Below the pieces are notes generated by a model. The model worked only from the letters and a program-made list of their open reading frames with translations, did no database searches and was not told where the DNA came from. 64,000 bases of DNA. Origin: Rhodococcus sp. 06-462-5 (GTDB taxonomy: Bacteria > Actinomycetota > Actinomycetes > Mycobacteriales > Mycobacteriaceae). Shown one piece after another: positions 18,744 to 42,868 of the stretch. The DNA lies in NCBI RefSeq assembly GCF_002258315.1, contig NZ_NOYD01000001.1, forward strand, positions 372,001 through 436,000. Direction: 5' to 3'. A program made the translations under genes and the position numbers. The stretch's first letter is position 1, and every line of letters starts with the position of its first letter.

Positions 18744-20693
18744 CTATTCTCCGGCATCCACTCTCGCTGCGAGGAATGCTTCCGGATCGATCAGATCCGC
18801 CTGCCCGACGATCGATCCCAGGTCAGCGATACGTTCGATACCGGTAAGCACCATCTCCTCTTCCACCGTGCCCTCGGCGTAGCCGTAGTAGCAGGTCGAC
18901 GTCGTGTGGTTGTGGTCCTTGTCGATGCGGTTCGCCCGGCCCTCGATCTGCCTGATGTCGATGGGTGTCCACCTCGGGTCGTGAATCAGCGTCACGCGTG
19001 GGGCGAGGGTCGACACCGTCCCCTCCGGAAGCAGTAACTCGTTGGTGTGCAGATTGATCGCACTGGTGGTGGTCGACACGATGACCGACGCGTCGCCGGT
19101 CTGAAAGCGTCTGATCGACGCCTCCTGCTCGGGGCTGCTCATGGAGCCGTCGACGACTGCGACATCGAGACCCTCGTCCCGCAGTGTCTGCGCGAGCGCA
19201 GCGACCGACTCCCGATAGAACATCGAGACGAACACTTGATTGCCGGCCTTGACCCACGTCCGTACCTGATCGGCCGACGCGGGAATGCGCAAGTACGAAC
19301 ACTTCTGGCGAAACCGCAGCGTCGCGGCGCGAGTGCTCGGGTTCTTCTGCAGCACCCGCTTGCCGCCGACGGCCTTCCAGATCGGTAGCCCGACTTCCTT
19401 GCGGTAGTCCACCCACGCAGAGTTGTACAGCCGCTTCTGGGCGGCAGTGAGTTCCTGCCCGAGCGGTTCGCGGGGAGTCGGCGGCGAGGGACGCGAAATC
19501 GACCACGGCACAGTGCCTCCCGACAGCCAGCCGTGCACGGACGCGATGTCACGTGCGCGGCGGGCCGCGTCCTCGGGCTCCCAGCGCCACGTCGTCAACC
19601 CCGTCGTCGCCTTGCCCGCCTTCACGGCGAACCCGGATTCGATGAGGAACTCGGCCCACTTCATCGTCACCGCGTACCCGAGGTACTCCTCGTCGCCCAG
19701 GATCTCGACTCCGCGACTGCGCTCCACCGCCCGAGCCATGTACGCGAAGTGCAGCGGCTGATAGCCGGGCGTGGCAGACATCCACACCACCGAGCGAGCA
19801 GCCTCCTGATACCGCCAGAGAATCTGAGACTGCTGCGATTCGATGTTCATCAACGCATGCGACTCGTCGGCGATCACCACATCGATGTCGAACCGCAATT
19901 CACCGAGTGAGATGGTCCGTTTGTTCTGTGTCCGTTTGCGTTTGCCCAGGTCGGTCTCCGGCGGAACGGACAGAAGCTTCTTCGTCGACTGGTAGGTGAT
20001 GAGCAGCCAACGCTTTCGCTCGGACGGCTCGATGTCCGCCTCGCTGTCTGCAATGGTTCGACGCCACCCCGGCAACGCGCCCTTGGGGGCCACCACCAGC
20101 ACCGTGCCGATCTCGGCGGCCGACATCTGCCGGACGGCCTCGCACACCGCGAGGGTCTTGCCCAGACCCGTCGAATCCATCTGCGCGAAGTACGGGAACC
20201 CGGCCTCGAGGGCGGCGAGATGGCGTCGTACGGATTCGAGTTGGGTGTCACGCGGCTGCATCGCCCGCTCCCGCACCACCTCGTCACGCCAATTCTCGTT
20301 GGCGTCGTCCTCTAACCACCGCTGCAGGCTGTACGGCATCGACTCGTACGGCTGCAGATACTCGGGCAATTCGGTGCCGTAGTACGCGAACACCCGAGGA
20401 CCGGGATACCAGCGCGCCCCGGCCGCGCCTGCCGCCGACCGATCCTCGAACGGGACGTCCAGCACCCAGACGCGCTCACCGGGATCGGGCACCCGAAGAT
20501 CGGGGGCAGAGGTCTTGCGCGGTGAGGTCTTGCGCGGGGCTGCCCGCTTGCGAGGTGCGGCCTTCTTCGCCGCTGGTTTCTTGTCCGCAGGCTCACCGTT
20601 CTTGGCGGCCGCGAACTTTCGCGCAGCGCTGCTCTGCCCGGCCTTGACGGTGCGGGCAGTGGTGGATCGGGCTGTGCGTCTACGAGGTGGCAT
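18744..20693 (-). CDS. SF2 DEAD/DEAH-type helicase with basic tail and DUF5710-like domain
   Basis: 649 aa. Residues 1-65 are Lys/Ala/Pro-rich like a histone H1 tail (KKPAAKKAAPRKR). Residues ~70-105 read VWVLDVPFEDRSAAGAAGARWYPG, like DUF5710. The SNF2-like ATPase core has a Walker A DSTGLGKTLAV, a DESH box (IADESHAL), motif III SATP, and motif VI QIEGRANRIDKD. Probably an ATP-dependent DNA translocase or helicase. The ATG at 20693 starts the basic tail; the frame stays open upstream but only as antisense to other genes. The role is uncertain; relatives occur in actinobacterial chromosomes and phages. Confidence 0.85.
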   Translation of the reverse strand: MPPRRRTARSTTARTVKAGQSSAARKFAAAKNGEPADKKPAAKKAAPRKRAAPRKTSPRKTSAPDLRVPDPGERVWVLDVPFEDRSAAGAAGARWYPGPRVFAYYGTELPEYLQPYESMPYSLQRWLEDDANENWRDEVVRERAMQPRDTQLESVRRHLAALEAGFPYFAQMDSTGLGKTLAVCEAVRQMSAAEIGTVLVVAPKGALPGWRRTIADSEADIEPSERKRWLLITYQSTKKLLSVPPETDLGKRKRTQNKRTISLGELRFDIDVVIADESHALMNIESQQSQILWRYQEAARSVVWMSATPGYQPLHFAYMARAVERSRGVEILGDEEYLGYAVTMKWAEFLIESGFAVKAGKATTGLTTWRWEPEDAARRARDIASVHGWLSGGTVPWSISRPSPPTPREPLGQELTAAQKRLYNSAWVDYRKEVGLPIWKAVGGKRVLQKNPSTRAATLRFRQKCSYLRIPASADQVRTWVKAGNQVFVSMFYRESVAALAQTLRDEGLDVAVVDGSMSSPEQEASIRRFQTGDASVIVSTTTSAINLHTNELLLPEGTVSTLAPRVTLIHDPRWTPIDIRQIEGRANRIDKDHNHTTSTCYYGYAEGTVEEEMVLTGIERIADLGSIVGQADLIDPEAFLAARVDAGE

Positions 20694-20709
20694 CGGATCC
20701 AGTCTGTCG

Positions 20710-20731
20710 TACGGTGTGCACGAACACCGTA
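20710..20731. promoter_or_regulatory. Inverted repeat between helicase and amidotransferase genes
   Basis: TACGGTGT, 6 nt, ACACCGTA, an 8-bp perfect inverted repeat in the 48-bp divergent region, immediately before the AAAGGAG of the amidotransferase gene. Possible shared operator. Confidence 0.4.
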
Positions 20732-20741
20732 AAGGAGCCCT

Positions 20742-21455
20742 GTGACATACACGAACGACCCGCGCGCCGTAGTACTCGTCCACGATCAGGATCCGGCTCT
20801 CGCGCGCCGCGACATCGGCACCCTCGACGCCGAATTGCGCAGCAGGGGTTTCCAGTTGGACGTGCATTCCTTCGACCACAGCCCCGGCACCGCACCGCCG
20901 TCGCTGTCCGACGCGCAGTTGCTGGTGGTCATGGGCTCGCCGGACGCTGCGTACGACGACACACTGACCTGGCTCGCGCCGGAAATCGCATACGTACGGC
21001 AGGCCATCGACGCGCAGGTCCCGATCCTGGGCGTCTGTTTCGGTGGTCAGTTGCTCGCTCGGGTGATCGGCGGCAGCGTTCGCAGGTCCGAGCATCCCGA
21101 GTACGGTTTCGTCGACGTCGAGACGTCCGATCCCGAGCTCATCGCCCCGGGCCCGTGGATGGAGTTTCACGGAGACACCTTCGTCGCTCCCCCGGAGGCG
21201 ACGGTGATCGCCCACAACGAGGCCGCGCAACAGGCGTTCGTCCTCGGACCGCACCTCGGACTGCAATTCCACCCCGAAATCGACCTCGACACCTACGACG
21301 CGTGGGCCGCTGCGTGGGACCGCGACGGCGTCGAACATGCGGTGGACGTGCACGGCATTCGCCGCGCCATCGCGGACGCCGAACCTGCAGCTCGGGCGCG
21401 TTGCTCGGCTCTGGTGGACGCATTTCTCGCCCGATCCTCGGCGGTGCCCCGGTAG
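20742..21455 (+). CDS. Class-I glutamine amidotransferase-like protein
   Basis: 237 aa, GTG start with AAAGGAG. Cys99 in ILGVCFGGQ, His176 and Glu178 in LQFHPEID form the GATase-I triad. No synthetase domain is attached, so it resembles stand-alone amidotransferase-like or gamma-glutamyl hydrolase-like proteins. First of three same-direction genes with short gaps; the next starts 9 bp later. Confidence 0.87.
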   Translation: MTYTNDPRAVVLVHDQDPALARRDIGTLDAELRSRGFQLDVHSFDHSPGTAPPSLSDAQLLVVMGSPDAAYDDTLTWLAPEIAYVRQAIDAQVPILGVCFGGQLLARVIGGSVRRSEHPEYGFVDVETSDPELIAPGPWMEFHGDTFVAPPEATVIAHNEAAQQAFVLGPHLGLQFHPEIDLDTYDAWAAAWDRDGVEHAVDVHGIRRAIADAEPAARARCSALVDAFLARSSAVPR

Positions 21456-21464
21456 GGTCGAACG

Positions 21465-22643
21465 ATGACCGAGGCCAGGCCCAGCAACTTCAGCGATCAC
21501 CAACTCGGCATCTACGCCGCCGGGATGTTCGCCCAGCAGACACCGTCGATCACCACCAACCTGGCGCGGCTCGAGGACCAGGCTGCCGAGAAGCTCTCGC
21601 CCGAGGCTCTCGGCTACATCGTCGCCAGCGCGGGCAGTGGCTCGACGGCTCGTGCGAACCGGGCTGCTTTCGACAGGTGGGCCATCGCACCGCGGATGCT
21701 GCGCAGCTCGGCTGCCCGCAACCACGCGTGCACCGTGCTCGGCACCGACATGCCTGCACCGCTGCTGATCGCTCCCGTGGGCATTCAGACCCTCGCCCAC
21801 CCCGACGGTGAGCTCGCCACCGTCCGCGCAGCTGCGGAACTCGGTGTGCCGTACATACATTCGACGCAGGCCTCGCATTCGTTCGAGCAGATTGCCGAGG
21901 CGGGCGGCGACGCTCCCCGCTGGTATCAGCTCTACTGGCCGACGGACGAGTCGGTGCTGCTGAGCTTCCTGCAGCGCGCGAAGGATTCCGGTTTCAGCGC
22001 GCTGGTGCTGACGCTCGACACCACCTTGCTGGGCTGGCGGCCCGCCGATCTGGACCGTGGTTACCTCCCGTTCTTGGCCAACCTGGGTATCGAGAACTAC
22101 CTCAGCGATCCGGCGTTCCAGGCCGGGCTGGCACAGCCCGTCGAGGAGAATCCCGTTGCTGCCGCGATGCATTGGGCGCAGATGTTCCCCAACCCGGGTT
22201 TGTCGTGGAAGAACCTCGCGTTCCTGCGGGAGCACTGGGACGGCCCGATCGTGCTGAAGGGAATCTGCACGGTCGACGACGCGCGAGAGGCCGCTGCGCA
22301 CGGAGTCGACGGCATCGTCGTCTCCAACCACGGCGGTCGTCAGATCGACGGGGCCAGAGCATCACTCGACGCGTTGCCGTCCATCGTCGACGCCGTGGGC
22401 GACCAGCTGACGGTCCTGTTCGACTCGGGAGTGCGCACCGGGGCCGACATGGCCAAGGCCCTGGCGCTCGGTGCCGATGCGGTACTGCTCGGCCGCCCGT
22501 TCCTCTACGGACTCGCACTCGGTGGGCAGGAGGGCGTGGCGCACGTATTGCGTTGTCTTCTGGCCGAATTCGATCTGGTGACCAGCCTGTCCGGCCATAC
22601 CGGTGCGGGCGAGCTCGGCCGCGACTCGATCATGGAGTCCTGA
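21465..22643 (+). CDS. FMN-dependent alpha-hydroxy-acid oxidase, lactate 2-monooxygenase-like
   Basis: 392 aa TIM barrel. FMN/active-site residues: Lys265 (IVLKGI), His289 and Arg292 in SNHGGRQIDG, and DSGVRTGADMAKALALGADAVLLGRPF. The length and the N-terminal helical segment fit the lactate 2-monooxygenase branch, which converts lactate to acetate, CO2 and water. A plain oxidase or dehydrogenase is also possible. Its stop overlaps the next start (TGATG). Confidence 0.87.
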   Translation: MTEARPSNFSDHQLGIYAAGMFAQQTPSITTNLARLEDQAAEKLSPEALGYIVASAGSGSTARANRAAFDRWAIAPRMLRSSAARNHACTVLGTDMPAPLLIAPVGIQTLAHPDGELATVRAAAELGVPYIHSTQASHSFEQIAEAGGDAPRWYQLYWPTDESVLLSFLQRAKDSGFSALVLTLDTTLLGWRPADLDRGYLPFLANLGIENYLSDPAFQAGLAQPVEENPVAAAMHWAQMFPNPGLSWKNLAFLREHWDGPIVLKGICTVDDAREAAAHGVDGIVVSNHGGRQIDGARASLDALPSIVDAVGDQLTVLFDSGVRTGADMAKALALGADAVLLGRPFLYGLALGGQEGVAHVLRCLLAEFDLVTSLSGHTGAGELGRDSIMES

Positions 22644-23938: not shown

Positions 23939-24121
23939 CTGCCCTGGCCGCTTTCGCGCGGTCGAAGAATGCCGGCAGATGCGGCAGCTGTTCGTCGGTG
24001 ACGGTGAACTTCATTCGGTCGCCCGCTAGCCGATGCGGTGGTCGAGGACGAAAATGACGTTCTCGTCGAGGCGATACTCCAGGTAGACGCGTTCGGCCCT
24101 GGCGGCACAGTAACTTGTCAT
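23928..24121 (-). other. Gap with two tiny open frames
   Basis: The region 23939-24347 has no ordinary gene. Its left part holds two minus-strand micro-frames: 24026-24121 (31 aa, MTSYCAARAERVYLEYRLDE...) and 23928-24014 (28 aa, MKFTVTDEQLPHLPAFFDRA...), separated by 11 nt. Their composition looks protein-like and the second overlaps the GH13 3' end by 11 bp. Neither has a clear RBS. They may be micro-proteins or the remains of a frameshifted gene. Confidence 0.3.
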
Positions 24122-24210
24122 CGTCGTATTCGGGTGTCTATCAACTGGGCTAGAGAACCGTATCGACGGCAATGCAGCGCCCAACCGAGGCCGGTGGGTA
24201 CAGTCGAGCG

Positions 24211-24286
24211 CGACACGGGGTGCCCCCAGGGGCTGAGAACACACCCGTCGAACCTGATCTGGTTAGGACCAGCGAAGGGAATGTCG
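24211..24286 (+). ncRNA. TPP riboswitch (THI element)
   Basis: Diagnostic segments occur in order: P1 strand CGACA, CGGGGTGC, GGCTGAGA, ACCCG, GAACCTGATCTGGTTAG, ACCAGCGAAGGGAA, then the P1 return strand TGTCG. These match the thiamin-pyrophosphate aptamer consensus closely. About 61 nt separate it from the SDR start codon; there CCTC at 24326-24329 could pair with the purine-rich AGAGGCGAGG just before the ATG, suggesting translational control. No thiamin-synthesis gene follows. Confidence 0.95.
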
Positions 24287-24347
24287 TGACGTTTCGGTAT
24301 TTCCTGTCCTTCGCGTGGGTCCCGACCTCGAACGAGAGGCGAGGCGC

Positions 24348-25109
24348 ATGAAATTCGACGAGCAGACGGTCTTGGTGACCGGCGGTGGCCGTGGACTGGG
24401 AGCAGCGATCACGGCGGCATTCTCAGGTCAGGGTGCGCGCGTGGTGATCGATTACCGCAACAGCAAAGATGCTGCCGAAGCACTGGCGGACCGACTCGGC
24501 GAGAACGCGATCGCAGTGCAGGGTGACGTCACCGACGAAGGCGATGTGGCTGCACTGTTCGACACCGCCCGTGCACACTTCGGCACCCCGATCACCACCG
24601 TCGTCAACAATGCGCTGGCCGATTTCTCCTTCGCCGGCGATGCCCGGCCCAAGGCCGACACCATCACCTGGGAACGCTTCGACGCTCAATTGCGTGGCAG
24701 CGTCCGCGCGGCGTTGCTCACCACCCAGGCGGCACTGCCGGGTATGCGCGAGGCCGGGTTCGGTCGAATCATCAACGTGGGCACCAACTTGTTCCAGAAT
24801 CCGGTGGTGCCGTACCACGACTACACCGCCTCCAAGGCCGCACTGCTTTCGCTGACCCGCACTCTGTCCGCGGACCTCGGTGCAGACAACATCTCCGTCA
24901 ACATGGTCTCGGGCGGACTGCTGCGCACCACCGACGCCAGTGCCGCTACCCCGGTCGAGGTGTTCGACTTCATCGCCGCCTCCACTCCGCTGCAACGCGT
25001 CACCACGCCCGAGGAGTTCGCCGATGCCCTGCTGTTCTTCGCTTCGCCGTGGGCGCGGTCGGTGACCGGCCAGAATCTCGTCGTCGACGGCGGCTTGGTC
25101 AAGAACTGA
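24348..25109 (+). CDS. SDR-family oxidoreductase under TPP riboswitch
   Basis: 253 aa classical SDR. TGGGRGLG cofactor motif (residues 11-18), VNNALADFSF in place of NNAG, active-site YHDYTASKAALL (YxxxK) and GLLRTTDASA. 3-oxoacyl-ACP-reductase-like. Start at 24348 has GAGGCG; an upstream GTG (24315) would run through the riboswitch expression platform. Riboswitch control implies a role connected to thiamin or its precursors. I recall THI-linked oxidoreductases of this type from comparative studies (provisional name oarX), but cannot verify that here. Confidence 0.88.
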   Translation: MKFDEQTVLVTGGGRGLGAAITAAFSGQGARVVIDYRNSKDAAEALADRLGENAIAVQGDVTDEGDVAALFDTARAHFGTPITTVVNNALADFSFAGDARPKADTITWERFDAQLRGSVRAALLTTQAALPGMREAGFGRIINVGTNLFQNPVVPYHDYTASKAALLSLTRTLSADLGADNISVNMVSGGLLRTTDASAATPVEVFDFIAASTPLQRVTTPEEFADALLFFASPWARSVTGQNLVVDGGLVKN

Positions 25110-25110
25110 C

Positions 25111-26379
25111 ATGCACCTCAACGCATTTCTCTACGGTTGCGGCCACCACAGCGCCGCGTGGCGGCATCCCGGTTCGCGAGTGGAGGATCTCGGCGACATC
25201 TCCTACTACGAGGAACTCGCGCAGCTCGCCGAACGGGGAAAGTTCGATGCGGTGTTCTTCGCCGACGGACATTCGGTGCGCGACCCGGCCGGAGCCGGCA
25301 CGTGGTTCCTCGAGCCGATCACCGCGCTGTCGGCCATGGCCGGGGCCACCACGCACATCGGTCTGGTCACCACGGTGTCGTCGACGTTCTACACCCCGTT
25401 CCATGCTGCACGCATGCTGGCGTCGCTCGATCACATCAGCGGCGGCCGGGCGGGCTGGAACGTCGTCACCTCCATGTTCGACGCCGAGGCACGCAATCAC
25501 GGAATGGACGTCATCCCCGCTCGTGAGGAGCGCTACGCGCGCGCCGAAGAGTTCGTCGATACGGCTCTGGCGCTGTGGGATTCGTGGGATGCCGACGCAT
25601 TGACGCTCGATCGAAGCGGACAGTATGCGGATCCGGCCAAGGTGCACTCGATCGACCACGACGGCAAGCATTTTCGAGTCGACGGCCCGTTGACGGTACC
25701 GCGGTCGCCGCAGGGCAGGCCGGTGCTGTTCCAAGCCGGGGCGTCGGGGCCGGGTCGCGAACTGGCGGCGAAATACGCCGAGGCAATCTACGCTGTCGCC
25801 TACGATCTCGTTGCAGCGCAACGCTATTACGGGGACGTGAAGACGCGGATCCGCCAAGCGGGTCGCGACAGCGCGGCGGTGGGGATCATGCCGGGTCTGG
25901 TGACCTATATCGGCTCGACCGTGGACGAAGCCCGCCGAAAGAAAGCCGAACTGGATCGGCTGCTCCCCACCGAGCAGTCGTTGGCGATGCTGTCGACGTT
26001 CACCGGGCAGGACTGCGCTGCTTGGGAACTCGATGCTCCGGTACCGAACCTGCCGCCGGCATCGGAGTTCACCGGACCGCAGGGCCGCTACGAGACAATC
26101 CTGCGGATCGTCGAGAAGGACGCTCCCACCGTGCGGGAACTGCTCGGTACCCTCGCGGCCGGCGGAGGCCACGCCACGATGATCGGCACACCGGAATCGA
26201 TTGCAGACGAGATGCAGTCCTGGATCGGCCGTGGTGCCGACGGATTCAATCTGATGTGTCCGCGATATCCGGACTCCCTCGAGGACTTCGTGGACCATGT
26301 GGTCCCGATCCTGCAGCAGCGCGGCGTCTTTCGATCCGACTACACCGCGTCGACGCTGCGCGGGCACCTGGCTCGCTGA
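25111..26379 (+). CDS. FMN-dependent LLM monooxygenase (NtaA/SnaA/DszA type)
   Basis: 422 aa two-component-type flavin monooxygenase. Signature stretches: SYYEELAQLAERGKFDAVFFAD, DHISGGRAGWNVVTSMFDAEARNHG, GKHFRVDGPLTVPRSPQGRPVLFQAGASGPGRELAAKYAEAIY. It starts one base after the SDR stop, so it is co-translated under the TPP riboswitch. Family members oxidise nitrilotriacetate, dibenzothiophene sulfone or pristinamycin and need FMNH2 from a separate reductase. I infer oxidation of a thiamin-related heterocycle, which is untested. Confidence 0.88.
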   Translation: MHLNAFLYGCGHHSAAWRHPGSRVEDLGDISYYEELAQLAERGKFDAVFFADGHSVRDPAGAGTWFLEPITALSAMAGATTHIGLVTTVSSTFYTPFHAARMLASLDHISGGRAGWNVVTSMFDAEARNHGMDVIPAREERYARAEEFVDTALALWDSWDADALTLDRSGQYADPAKVHSIDHDGKHFRVDGPLTVPRSPQGRPVLFQAGASGPGRELAAKYAEAIYAVAYDLVAAQRYYGDVKTRIRQAGRDSAAVGIMPGLVTYIGSTVDEARRKKAELDRLLPTEQSLAMLSTFTGQDCAAWELDAPVPNLPPASEFTGPQGRYETILRIVEKDAPTVRELLGTLAAGGGHATMIGTPESIADEMQSWIGRGADGFNLMCPRYPDSLEDFVDHVVPILQQRGVFRSDYTASTLRGHLAR

Positions 26380-26401: not shown

Positions 26402-26986
26402 TCACCGAGCAGGCCCGAAGACCCCCCGATCGACGAACGTCACCAGAGCGTCGAGTCCGTCGTCGGGCGAGCCCTGCCACAGCCGGGCGAAATTCTCTGC
26501 TGCACCACCGATCAGCATCGCGGTGGTGGCAGGGGACGCCGGTAGCTCGACGCCTGCCCTCTCGAAATTCGCGAGGCGGACGACCCACGGCTCGAACTGA
26601 ACCTGCGTGAATCGCTGTACTCGCAGTGCGAAGTCTGCATTGACCAGAGCTGCATCGCGGAGGGCATCGATCACCACTCGGTGCCGAGTGAGCAACTGCC
26701 AGAACACTTCCACGTGCGGACGCATCGTCGGGTGCTCGCGCGCCGACGGGTCCTGAGTGGCGACGATGACGTCGGCGTCCTCACCGATCTGCTCGGCGAG
26801 GGCGAGCAGCAGCTCCTCCTTGCTGGAGTAGTGGTTGTAGAACGAGCCTGCCGCTCGTCCGGCTTCGCGGGTGATGTCGACGATCTTGGTGTTCAGGTAT
26901 CCGGACCGGGCGAACACGACGCGGGCGGCGTTCTCCAGTTCGACCCGGGTTCGTCCGGCCTGTTGCGCCCGTGTTGTGGCGGCCAT
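26402..26986 (-). CDS. TetR-family regulator
   Basis: 194 aa, start at 26986 with AGGGAG. HTH: FARSGYLNTKIVDITREAGRAAGSFYNHYSSKEELL. C-terminal ligand domain is helical. Divergent from the quinone-oxidoreductase gene, with a 20-bp perfect palindrome between them. Convergent with the monooxygenase gene and outside the riboswitch operon. Confidence 0.9.
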   Translation of the reverse strand: MAATTRAQQAGRTRVELENAARVVFARSGYLNTKIVDITREAGRAAGSFYNHYSSKEELLLALAEQIGEDADVIVATQDPSAREHPTMRPHVEVFWQLLTRHRVVIDALRDAALVNADFALRVQRFTQVQFEPWVVRLANFERAGVELPASPATTAMLIGGAAENFARLWQGSPDDGLDALVTFVDRGVFGPAR

Positions 26987-27027
26987 CTCTGCTCCCTGCC
27001 TGTTGACACCTCTGCCGTCACGATACA

Positions 27028-27047
27028 CACTGAATCACGATTCAGTG
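27028..27047. promoter_or_regulatory. TetR operator
   Basis: CACTGAATC-AC-GATTCAGTG, a perfect 9-bp inverted repeat with a 2-bp spacer, 26 bp upstream of the oxidoreductase start and 41 bp from the tetR start. Confidence 0.8.
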
Positions 27048-28921: not shown

Positions 28922-30028
28922 CTATAGATCGAGTACGAGACGCCCGCTACGAGCACGCGAGACGCAGATGAGCATGTGATCACGTTGTTCTTCGGGAGTC
29001 AGCCGAGATTCGAGATGTTCGGGCTCACCCGACAGCACCCGAACCTTGCAGGTACCGCAGAAGCCCTGCTGGCACGAGTACGCGATATTCGGTTTCTGTT
29101 CCTTGACGGCCGTCAACACCGACGCGTCGGCCGCGACGTCGAGCACGGCACCGGTGCTGATCAGCTGCACCTCGAACGGAGTGCCGTCGAGAATGGGTGG
29201 CGGGCCGAAACGCTCGAAATGCAGTGCGGTGGACGGGCACTGGCGAAAATCGCGGCGGACGGCGTCGAGCATCGGGGTGGGGCCACAGCAGTAGACGGCA
29301 CCTCCCGCGGGTGCGCGCTGGAGTAATTCGCCCTCGGTGGGGTAGCCGTGCACGTCGTCGGTGCGAACGAACACGCGGTCCGACTCCCAGCTCTCGATCT
29401 CGTCGAGGAAGGGCATCGTGTCGCGAGATCGACCGCAGTACACGAATTGCCAGTCCATGCCGAGAATCCGCGCAGCTCTGACCATCGCGATGATGGGAGT
29501 GATGCCGATACCACCCGCGACGAACAGGGCGCTGCCCTCACCGACGAAAGGGAATCCGTTGCGGGGACCGCGGACGGTCACCTCGGTGCCTGGCTCCAGC
29601 CCGTGCATCTCGATGGATCCACCTGCGCCGGTGGGGATTCGACGCACCGCGATCCGGTAGGAGCTGCGATCGGACGGGTTGCCGCACAACGAATACTGGC
29701 GGCGGCGGCCGGAGGGCAGGTGCAGATCGAGATGGCAGCCCGGATGCCAGATCGGCAGCTGCTCCCCCGTCGGCGACGCAAGGGTGATGGCTGCGACATC
29801 GTTGTCCTCGGCGACGATCTCGCGTTCGGTGACGACCAACGTCAACGCGGAATCGGGATTGTGGCCGGCGACGGCCTCGTCGTACTCCGCACCGGCAGCC
29901 GCACGCATGTATCCGTTGAGAAACGTGCCGAGGAGCTGCATCGAGCGATCGGGATGTGCCCGTCCACGCAGATCGGGTGGCGCATCCTTGGGAAGCAGTC
30001 GCGGGACGCGGCGCGAGGTGAGCTTCAC
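28922..30028 (-). CDS. Ferredoxin-type reductase (FAD/NAD(P) plus C-terminal 2Fe-2S)
   Basis: 368 aa. Order: FAD-binding barrel (RQYSLCGNPSD), NAD-binding domain (VAGGIGITPIIAMVR, CCGPTPMLDAV), plant-type ferredoxin domain with CQQGFCGTCKVRVLSG and a distal Cys in LICVSRA. This is the PDR/VanB-type single-chain reductase. It overlaps the upstream diiron-like gene by 4 bp (GTGA). It probably supplies electrons to that protein or to an oxygenase elsewhere. Confidence 0.9.
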   Translation of the reverse strand: MKLTSRRVPRLLPKDAPPDLRGRAHPDRSMQLLGTFLNGYMRAAAGAEYDEAVAGHNPDSALTLVVTEREIVAEDNDVAAITLASPTGEQLPIWHPGCHLDLHLPSGRRRQYSLCGNPSDRSSYRIAVRRIPTGAGGSIEMHGLEPGTEVTVRGPRNGFPFVGEGSALFVAGGIGITPIIAMVRAARILGMDWQFVYCGRSRDTMPFLDEIESWESDRVFVRTDDVHGYPTEGELLQRAPAGGAVYCCGPTPMLDAVRRDFRQCPSTALHFERFGPPPILDGTPFEVQLISTGAVLDVAADASVLTAVKEQKPNIAYSCQQGFCGTCKVRVLSGEPEHLESRLTPEEQRDHMLICVSRARSGRLVLDL

Positions 30029-30924
30029 CTGGCCGCAGCCTGCGCGGCAGGCGAGGACGCGAGGTACCGGACGGCCTGCGCGGTCGAGCCTTCCTGGCTG
30101 GGGTGGTACGACTTCCTGAGGTAGCGCGACATGCTGCGACCGACGTGCGTCAACGCGGGAAGGGTGCCGCGCCTGACCGACTTCCGCCACAGAGCCGACC
30201 GAGGCTTGCGCACGGATTTCGGCGCAGACTGCAGTTCCGGGTCGTTCTTCATCAGGAAGATGATCCCGCGCATCCAGATGTACGCCATCAACGGCACGAC
30301 CAGCACGAAGGTGCGAAGGCGACGGACCTCGCGCTTGTCGAAGTAGCGGAGCGTGTCGTACGCGACCGAGCGGTGCTCGACTTCTTCGGCACCGTGCCAC
30401 CGCAGCAGATCGAGCATGGTGGGGTGGATTCCTGCGCGATCGAGACCGTCTGCGTTGAGCACCCAGTCGCCGAGGAACGCCGTCACGTGTTCGATGGCGG
30501 CGATCAGGGCCAGGCGCTCGACCAGGTTGTTCTTCGACCGCAGGCTCGTCACCGAATCGGCTCCGAGTACCTTGCCGAAGGTCCATTCCATCTGATCGGT
30601 GAACGGCTTGGGGTCGAGCCCCTTGGCCTCGAGGTGAACGAGTACACCGGTGTGGGCCTCGGCGTGCACGGCCTCCTGGCCGATGAAGCCGATGACGTCG
30701 TCGCGCAGCTTCTCGTCGTCGATGTACGGCAGGGCCTCTTTGAACGTGTCGACGAACCAGTGCTCACCGGCGGGCAGCAACAGATGCAGCACGTTGAGCA
30801 CATGCGTGGTGTACGGGTCACCCGGCACCCAGTGCATCGGCAGATCGGTCCAGTCGAACTTCACGTTCCTGGCCTGCAGCATCACTTCGCCGGGATCCGA
30901 CGCGACGGTGTTCCGTTCGTTCAT
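30025..30924 (-). CDS. PF10118-type metal-dependent hydrolase, diiron-like
   Basis: 299 aa. Ferritin-like carboxylate/histidine pattern: AGEHWF, FIGQEAVHAEAH, AAIEHVTAFLG and AEEVEHRSVAYD. This is the COG3687 'predicted metal-dependent hydrolase' family. Coupling to a 2Fe-2S reductase suggests an oxidase or oxygenase chemistry instead of hydrolysis. RBS GGAGGAGGT before 30924. A hydrophobic segment near residue 210 may bind the membrane. Confidence 0.85.
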   Translation of the reverse strand: MNERNTVASDPGEVMLQARNVKFDWTDLPMHWVPGDPYTTHVLNVLHLLLPAGEHWFVDTFKEALPYIDDEKLRDDVIGFIGQEAVHAEAHTGVLVHLEAKGLDPKPFTDQMEWTFGKVLGADSVTSLRSKNNLVERLALIAAIEHVTAFLGDWVLNADGLDRAGIHPTMLDLLRWHGAEEVEHRSVAYDTLRYFDKREVRRLRTFVLVVPLMAYIWMRGIIFLMKNDPELQSAPKSVRKPRSALWRKSVRRGTLPALTHVGRSMSRYLRKSYHPSQEGSTAQAVRYLASSPAAQAAAR

Positions 30925-42794: not shown

Positions 42795-42868
42795 CGCGGG
42801 GTGGAGCAGCTCGGTAGCTCGCTGGGCTCATAACCCAGAGGTCGCAGGTTCAAATCCTGTCCCCGCTA
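42795..42868 (+). tRNA. tRNA-fMet(CAT), initiator
   Basis: A full cloverleaf is visible: acceptor GCGGGG/CCCCGC with an unpaired C1-U72 position, D-arm, anticodon loop CTCATAA, T-arm GGTTCAAATCC. The acceptor mismatch and three consecutive G-C pairs in the anticodon stem mark it as the initiator. CCA is not encoded. Confidence 0.95.

Follow-up and report, generated by a model that had tools for sequence, protein, structure and literature searches.

Why does a riboswitch of the thiamin pyrophosphate (TPP) class stand ahead of two redox genes in Rhodococcus sp. 06-462-5? The question is raised by a stretch of 64,000 nucleotides (contig NZ_NOYD01000001.1, positions 372,001 to 436,000; the window, in what follows), in which a plus-strand cassette combines a compact TPP aptamer, or THI element (24206-24298), with the genes for a short-chain dehydrogenase/reductase (SDR; 24348-25109) and an FMN-dependent luciferase-like monooxygenase (LLM; 25111-26379). 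Rfam family RF00059 matches the aptamer over its entire model (positions 1-105, not cut off) at 72.0 bits against a gathering score of 54.3 (E 3.3e-12). This is the sole TPP match above the gathering score in the window, and its core is the aptamer that a preliminary description of the same DNA had placed at 24211-24286 and proposed for an Rfam search. R1, a TPP covariance model that we built from 15 Rfam-defined aptamers including that of the window, gives it 80 bits, the other match in the window being at chance level (10.6 bits, E 0.26). The SDR gene starts at ATG 24348, 49 nt beyond the aptamer, and encodes 253 residues, with a longer alternative frame opening at GTG 24315; one base (25110) separates it from the LLM gene, whose product has 422 residues. 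The SDR belongs to the PRK08642 family, named '3-oxoacyl-ACP reductase' (NF006393, 434.4 bits, cut-off 292), and the LLM to the NtaA/DmoA/DszA/CmoJ group (TIGR03860, 536.8 bits, cut-off 279.7), so that coordinates, order and spacing had been given correctly for an SDR and an NtaA-type monooxygenase one base apart. As shown below, the aptamer and gene order are real, widely conserved across two phyla and linked to thiamin.

To see how widely the arrangement occurs, the LLM was used as a query against named bacterial genomes. Out of 416 relatives the best 80 were counted; they share 67-97% identity with the window LLM, and several strains of the window's genus recur among them. Context was tabulated by script, SDR matches below 150 bits being counted as none and aptamers being sought up to 1700 nt ahead. 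SDR and LLM genes adjoin in this order in 70 of the 80 loci, and a same-strand aptamer precedes the cassette in 71 (66 of the 70 pairs, five of nine loci with the LLM only, and not in the single locus with a distant SDR fragment), a strongly positive outcome for the survey of gene order that the preliminary description had suggested. The aptamer lies between -7 and 113 nt from the first gene in 67 of the 71; the other distances are 149, 290, 325 and 1486 nt, the last in a locus where thiM and thiE intervene (L079). Eight of the nine loci lacking a same-strand aptamer have instead a divergent aptamer at a distance of 130-243 nt; in the ninth, L084, the contig extends no more than 489 nt ahead. 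Eleven of the 80 loci are not independent of R1, because 14 of its 15 training aptamers come from them; in these 11 Rfam itself places 14 TPP matches, and ten of the loci have an aptamer ahead on the same strand, whereas L082 has only the divergent one. As a control, no aptamer match at E<=1 was found upstream of 20 LLM paralogs (20 of 40 listed; 41-51% identical to the window LLM). The linkage of aptamer and genes exceeds chance. We therefore regard a fatty-acid or general redox function with incidental TPP control as highly improbable: such a function is suggested by the NCBIfam name of the SDR and by three Caballeronia plasmid loci (L153, L157, L160) in which an SDR gene has no aptamer within 6 kb, but it does not fit same-strand aptamers at 71 of 80 loci against none at 20 paralog upstreams, nor the thiM, thiE, thiD, ThiT and symporter neighbours found in several lineages.

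Of the 37 genomes of the window's genus, with its own counted, 30 have an LLM ortholog of at least 80% identity and 36 have the SDR; all 30 LLM loci, the window's among them, carry the aptamer. Six genus loci with the SDR and no LLM ortholog at that identity (L117-L122) were fetched, all with an aptamer and with differing downstream genes, such as those for an exonuclease/TerD protein in L119; the SDR therefore seems able to work without the LLM. A draw of 251 genomes from the family yielded the LLM (E<=1e-160) in 52, each of which also has the SDR (E<=1e-85; 87 genomes in all), a nesting checked computationally for 36 non-genus rows and by eye for the 16 genus rows. The SDR is rare phylum-wide, with two of 149 genomes at E<=1e-60, own genome included.

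We next considered how the aptamer might act. An alignment of 110 aptamers, with 100 rows that are distinct, shows pairing in 95.9% of cells, and 13 of 21 pairs change on both sides, compared to a shuffled mean of 9.7 and reached by none of 500 shuffles; the rows had been fitted to the model, a bias towards the structure, and rows that are related can exceed shuffles. The window aptamer shares with RF00059 riboswitches a full-length match above the gathering score, while the cassette aptamers form a compact subclass without P3a, in which CTGAGA and ACCC are 4-5 nt apart in the relatives. The window region 24080-24380 contains no terminator-like site, and a sigma-70-like scan was also negative. 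Reading of the leader points to a putative hairpin between CCTC (24326-24329) and GAGG (24336-24339) that may mask the Shine-Dalgarno (SD) candidate GAGAGG (24334-24339), 8 nt ahead of ATG 24348. The minimum-free-energy fold of the whole leader contains this hairpin, but its energy is no better than that of shuffles (z -0.15), and we therefore claim no ON/OFF partner structure. In four relatives (L071, L074, L095, L064) an SD-like AAGGGA or GAGGGA lies inside the 3' strand of the aptamer, just ahead of where the first gene may start, and direct translational repression by bound TPP is therefore the easiest reading there. We infer that in the window organism, too, the element would bind TPP and follow an OFF logic.

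The genes beside the cassette in relatives offer a first indication of its purpose. In L079 (Pseudarthrobacter) the order is aptamer-thiM-thiE-SDR-LLM, in L080 (Candidatus Yaniella) aptamer-SDR-LLM-aptamer-thiD-MFS transporter-thiM-thiE, and in L110 (Glaciibacter) the cassette adjoins aptamer-led genes for thiO, ThiG and ThiF-type proteins and a PF09819 transporter gene, one aptamer there being weak (32 bits). On plasmids, aptamer and SDR-LLM occur together in Pseudochrobactrum (L151, L159) and Rhodococcus sp. DMU1 (L152), while a Neorhizobium plasmid (L154, from annotation) and a Rhizobium plasmid (L155, from open reading frames (ORFs) and Pfam) carry aptamer-thiM-thiE-thiD-SDR; two further plasmid loci (L156, L158), covered by the aptamer scan only, have the aptamer at the same offset. 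L154 and L155 resemble the rhizobial salvage operons that we take to be those called thiMED, with a TPP aptamer and the SDR following thiM-thiE-thiD; in the window, by contrast, the SDR pairs with the LLM, away from the kinases. The view that the riboswitch controls genes other than those of thiamin synthesis holds for the window, then, but not in general, as the SDR lies inside thiM-thiE(-thiD) operons in some genomes. One genome of the same phylum outside the window's class (L005/L161, G141:C373) has the order aptamer-ThiT-ThiN-aptamer-SDR-BluB-like nitroreductase-ThiD, ThiD being cut by the contig end; its SDR is 48% identical and still above the family cut-off, and a different flavin enzyme possibly replaces the LLM.

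A sodium:solute symporter gene with its own 5' TPP aptamer lies near the cassette in 25 of 26 Pseudomonadota loci, which include Achromobacter, other Alcaligenaceae, Oceanisphaera, Halomonas/Vreelandella and Methylobacillus. In most loci it is divergent; in L069, L073, L076 and L102 it follows the LLM in convergent orientation, and in L092, L105 and L115 a dihydroorotase-type gene intervenes. Its identity rests on family searches in three of the 25 loci (Pfam one, NCBIfam three) and on sequence clustering in the rest. The symporter, which is absent from the window locus, is likened to ThiV/SSSP by superfamily and by its own aptamer, its transport role being putative. According to PMC4260697, the SSSP symporter with a TPP riboswitch in Methylobacillus flagellatus was termed THIV after Rodionov 2002, and two Methylobacillus loci (L099, L103) have the symporter neighbour; PMC11452348 describes ThiV as the likely transporter of hydroxymethylpyrimidine (HMP) in SAR11. 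A locus in Achromobacter pulmonis contains a second, partial LLM copy (L106:2145-2531) near a second minus-strand TPP aptamer.

Symporter, thiM, thiE, thiD, ThiT and ThiN neighbours indicate thiamin salvage. The thiamin link of the cassette is well supported, and the pair very probably serves salvage or repair of the vitamin; salvage of a thiamin-derived compound, as earlier proposed, agrees with most of the comparative evidence, namely the salvage-gene neighbours in relatives and, in the window's genome, the location of ThiG and of tenA-thiYXZ-like genes close to the remaining TPP-like sites. Which half of thiamin is concerned is a closer call. The LLM and SDR might act on damaged or side-chain-oxidised hydroxyethylthiazole to yield hydroxyethylthiazole (HET) for ThiM, as the thiM genes of the L079, L080, L154 and L155 operons would suit. 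On the other side, the window's genome has ThiG and no ThiC, the aptamer-led symporter in the Pseudomonadota is of a type that is associated with HMP in SAR11 (PMC11452348), and L005/L161 has thiD, with no thiM seen on its 5.4-kb contig. We therefore lean slightly towards a substrate on the pyrimidine side, and consider the thiazole side unlikely.

In order to rationalise the chemistry, we turned to the two enzymes. Across 28 aligned SDR sequences the invariant positions include G-T-N-L as well as Tyr and Lys in Y-T-A-x-K, and alignment to 2ew8 places Thr at the position of the catalytic Ser in all 28; classical, FabG-like SDRs have a catalytic Ser, Tyr and Lys at these positions. Among the best solved matches are (S)-1-phenylethanol dehydrogenase and, in third place, an SDR-type pyridoxal 4-dehydrogenase, both enzymes of aryl or heteroaryl carbonyl/alcohol pairs; the resemblance is that of SDRs in general (E from about 1e-32 to 1e-30). 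The LLM is highly conserved (mean column identity 77% in 29 aligned sequences), with invariant blocks that include A-A-G-G-G-H, GHH close to the N-terminus and T-S-M-F-D following W-N. Its AlphaFold2 model (pLDDT 85.5, with segments 9-12, 53-65 and 123-131 below 50) has the luciferase-like fold of the TIGR03860 group and matches BdsA and CmoJ best (E 1.8e-40), the 25 best fold matches showing 32-40% identity and query TM-scores of 0.79-0.87. By sequence and fold its nearest solved relatives are CmoJ/YtnJ, BdsA, nitrilotriacetate (NTA) monooxygenase, DmoA, HcbA1, LadA, EmoA and RcaE, most though not all of which we take to cleave C-S or C-N bonds. With CmoJ/YtnJ, BdsA/DszA, the NTA and EDTA monooxygenases and RcaE the cassette LLMs share the TIGR03860 profile and fold; unlike them, they form a TPP-linked set with these invariant blocks, and in the window no flavin reductase is directly adjacent. 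Predictably for the group, the LLM would use FMNH2 and O2. RcaE, a riboflavin lyase/monooxygenase, takes the ribose off a vitamin heterocycle, according to PMC12746152.

These relatives therefore suggest an oxidative cleavage to a heteroaryl aldehyde followed by reduction to the alcohol, a cleave-then-reduce chemistry that we put forward tentatively and hold to be rather doubtful. The same kinship with RcaE could also be read as a defence against thiamin antagonists of the bacimethrin, pyrithiamine or oxythiamin type, in which the analogue would induce the genes by starving the cell of TPP and would itself be dealkylated or cleaved by the LLM; TPP control would then sense the damage, and the presence of the cassette on plasmids and in two phyla would agree. 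The uptake and salvage partners in several lineages fit acquisition better, however, and no recurrent export or resistance family was recognised beside the cassette, most neighbour clusters being unnamed, so that we think such a defence improbable.

We arrive at a reading that we favour by a narrow measure, in which the cassette is a module for thiamin-vitamer salvage or repair that TPP switches off. At low TPP the mRNA would be translated, and with TPP bound it would not. The LLM, supplied with O2 and with FMNH2 from a reductase encoded elsewhere, would oxidise the carbon next to a heteroatom in a thiamin breakdown product, cleaving a C-S or C-N bond and releasing a heteroaryl aldehyde. Candidate substrates are pyrimidines substituted on the 5-methylene, such as the product of sulfite cleavage of thiamin, or aminomethyl-pyrimidines. 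The SDR would then reduce the aldehyde to an alcohol fit for the salvage kinases, most likely HMP for ThiD and less likely HET for ThiM, before ThiE joins the two halves. The aptamer, the gene families, the conserved linkage of aptamer, SDR and LLM, and the salvage genes beside them in relatives are established, while the substrate, the chemistry, the order of reactions, the repression by TPP and the choice of pyrimidine over thiazole are inferred.

A pyrimidine substrate draws attention to ThiC. The window's genome is rated 100% complete, and no ThiC match was found in it nor in its 36 genus relatives, while ThiC is present in 183 of the 251 family genomes. It contains three TPP-like sites: that of the cassette, a second ahead of tenA and thiY-, thiX- and thiZ-like genes, and a third, some 1.3 kb before ThiG, that at 48.4 bits stays below the threshold. 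Of 42 genomes with the cassette (the window's own and 41 of the 80, chosen for diversity, the completeness of the named genomes being unrated), 14 lack ThiC and 28 have a match to it, and a strong ThiG is missing only in the genome of L080. A fifteenth carrier, Dietzia alimentaria (L072), has only a ThiC remnant of 58 bits with an in-frame TGA (G193:C26:100458-100667), about 4 kb from ThiG, and G290 of the family draw gives the same E-value. With the genus excluded, ThiC is lost in 16 of 36 LLM carriers compared to 30 of 193 non-carriers (Fisher p 2.3e-4). Within genera this association is gone for the LLM (Mantel-Haenszel odds ratio 1.04, permutation p 0.60) and for the SDR stands at an odds ratio of 1.70 (p 0.22), and it may therefore reflect shared ancestry. 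As an argument for the pyrimidine branch, ThiC loss is thus weakened, being significant overall and absent when stratified by genus. ThiG retention does not discriminate, as ThiC-less genomes keep ThiG with the SDR (18 of 20) or without it (25 of 26), and TenA, present in 34 of 48 genomes, is not decisive. In the related lineage of R. equi, thiC loss accompanies thiamin auxotrophy, and strain 103S is not rescued by HMP, according to PMC2947987 and PMC11893733.

The pair might even be a non-orthologous replacement for ThiC, making HMP out of some ordinary metabolite by a route that depends on O2. The 14 of 42 carriers without a ThiC match, the remnant in the fifteenth, and a genus with ThiC in none and the SDR in 36 of its 37 members would be expected of such a substitute. 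The 28 carriers with ThiC would not; nor would the lack of a skeleton-forming enzyme beside the pair in the window, the vanishing of the ThiC association within genera, or the 26 of 46 ThiC-less family genomes outside the genus that have no SDR. We judge a replacement of ThiC very improbable.

Several of these observations also count against the salvage module itself: the ThiC matches in most carriers, the loss of the association within genera for both genes, and the indifference of ThiG retention to the SDR. Further points have to be set beside them. In the window the aptamer is the only mark of thiamin salvage, with no operon link to thiM, thiE, thiD or a transporter, and the same holds at most actinobacterial loci, where nothing beside the cassette except the aptamer is thiamin-related among neighbour clusters that are partly named. 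No dedicated flavin reductase directly adjoins the pair in the window, and the thiM neighbours in relatives suit a thiazole substrate equally well. The LLM lacks an adjoining SDR in 10 of the 80 loci, and the SDR of the Caballeronia plasmids lacks the aptamer; SDR and LLM are also found apart, and a strict two-step coupling is therefore not universal.

The distribution over two phyla raises the further question of how the cassette has spread. In the LLM tree, in which five rows labelled 'Cyanobacteriota' are Rhodococcus and the label was ignored, Nocardiopsis is joined by three halomonads at a weak fork (83/43), and this group sits in an 11-row fork (91/91) that also contains a single row each of Micrococcaceae and Microbacteriaceae. 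For the Pseudomonadota, no more than one change is required by the branches with good support, so that mixing of the LLM between phyla is suggested without being established. The aptamers were compared for loci up to L116, setting aside three extra aptamers (two in L110, one in L080) and the minus-strand aptamer of L086. The Pseudomonadota loci that hold both kinds gave 18 aptamer pairs, and in all 18 the cassette aptamer resembles the cassette aptamers of actinobacteria more than the minus-strand aptamer of its own locus (mean core identity 0.695 versus 0.601), and the minus-strand aptamers mostly have 17-35 nt at the P3a site where cassette aptamers have 4-5. This kinship suggests that the cassette moves together with its riboswitch, and the plasmid copies agree.

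Is the arrangement already known? The open-access literature yielded no recognisable description of an SDR-LLM pair under a TPP riboswitch, and likewise none of the LLM half or of the distribution of the module. Rodionov et al. (JBC, 2002) reportedly listed a thiamin-regulated '3-oxoacyl reductase-like' gene, possibly oarX, and priority for the SDR may be theirs. The combination of 'oarX' with 'thiamin' gave nothing in the open-access literature, and the terms 'monooxygenase', 'dehydrogenase' and 'oarX' do not occur in the main text of Sun et al. 2013 (PMC3766115). As for the preliminary description, its observation is confirmed and its interpretation is overall partly supported.

The cassette stands alone in the window, between an amylase-like gene before it and a TetR gene (26402-27028) after it on the other strand, both of which were judged unrelated to it by family; the downstream genes of seven loci (DUF4185, CitMHS, Rv2466c-like and others) differ between families and were set aside. 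About 2.5 kb downstream of the pair, a minus-strand ORF (28922-30586) beside a gene for a PF10118 metal-dependent hydrolase encodes a 2Fe-2S/FAD/NAD reductase-like protein, a possible electron donor for the LLM. An FMN-dependent alpha-hydroxyacid dehydrogenase is encoded at 21465-22643 (plus strand), for which the NCBIfam names MftD and lactate dehydrogenase score far below their cut-offs. The ORF at 18744-22331 (minus strand) has a Lys/Ala/Pro-rich stretch ahead of helicase domains, and its true start is probably further in because the listed frame to 22331 runs antisense across other genes. A tRNA gene lies at 42795-42868 (plus strand), with anticodon CAU from the Rfam alignment.

In its boldest form, the salvage module would amount to an O2- and flavin-dependent route to the thiamin pyrimidine in ThiC-less bacteria, leading by C-S or C-N cleavage to 4-amino-5-formyl-2-methylpyrimidine, from there by reduction to HMP, and spreading across phyla with its riboswitch, an extension that we consider speculative and unlikely. 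Microbial communities are shaped by thiamin auxotrophy and the exchange of vitamers, and the enzymes of pyrimidine salvage known so far, TenA with its partners, account for the use of some vitamers only. If the proposal were true, thiamin debris now thought unusable would become a source of vitamin B1 through an enzymatic route independent of ThiC. It would add a missing salvage step in ThiC-less bacteria of the Rhodococcus type and in Pseudomonadota with a ThiV-like symporter, assign a class of substrates that can be tested to two orphan enzyme subfamilies, and allow a prediction of the degraded vitamin B1 forms that such bacteria can use.

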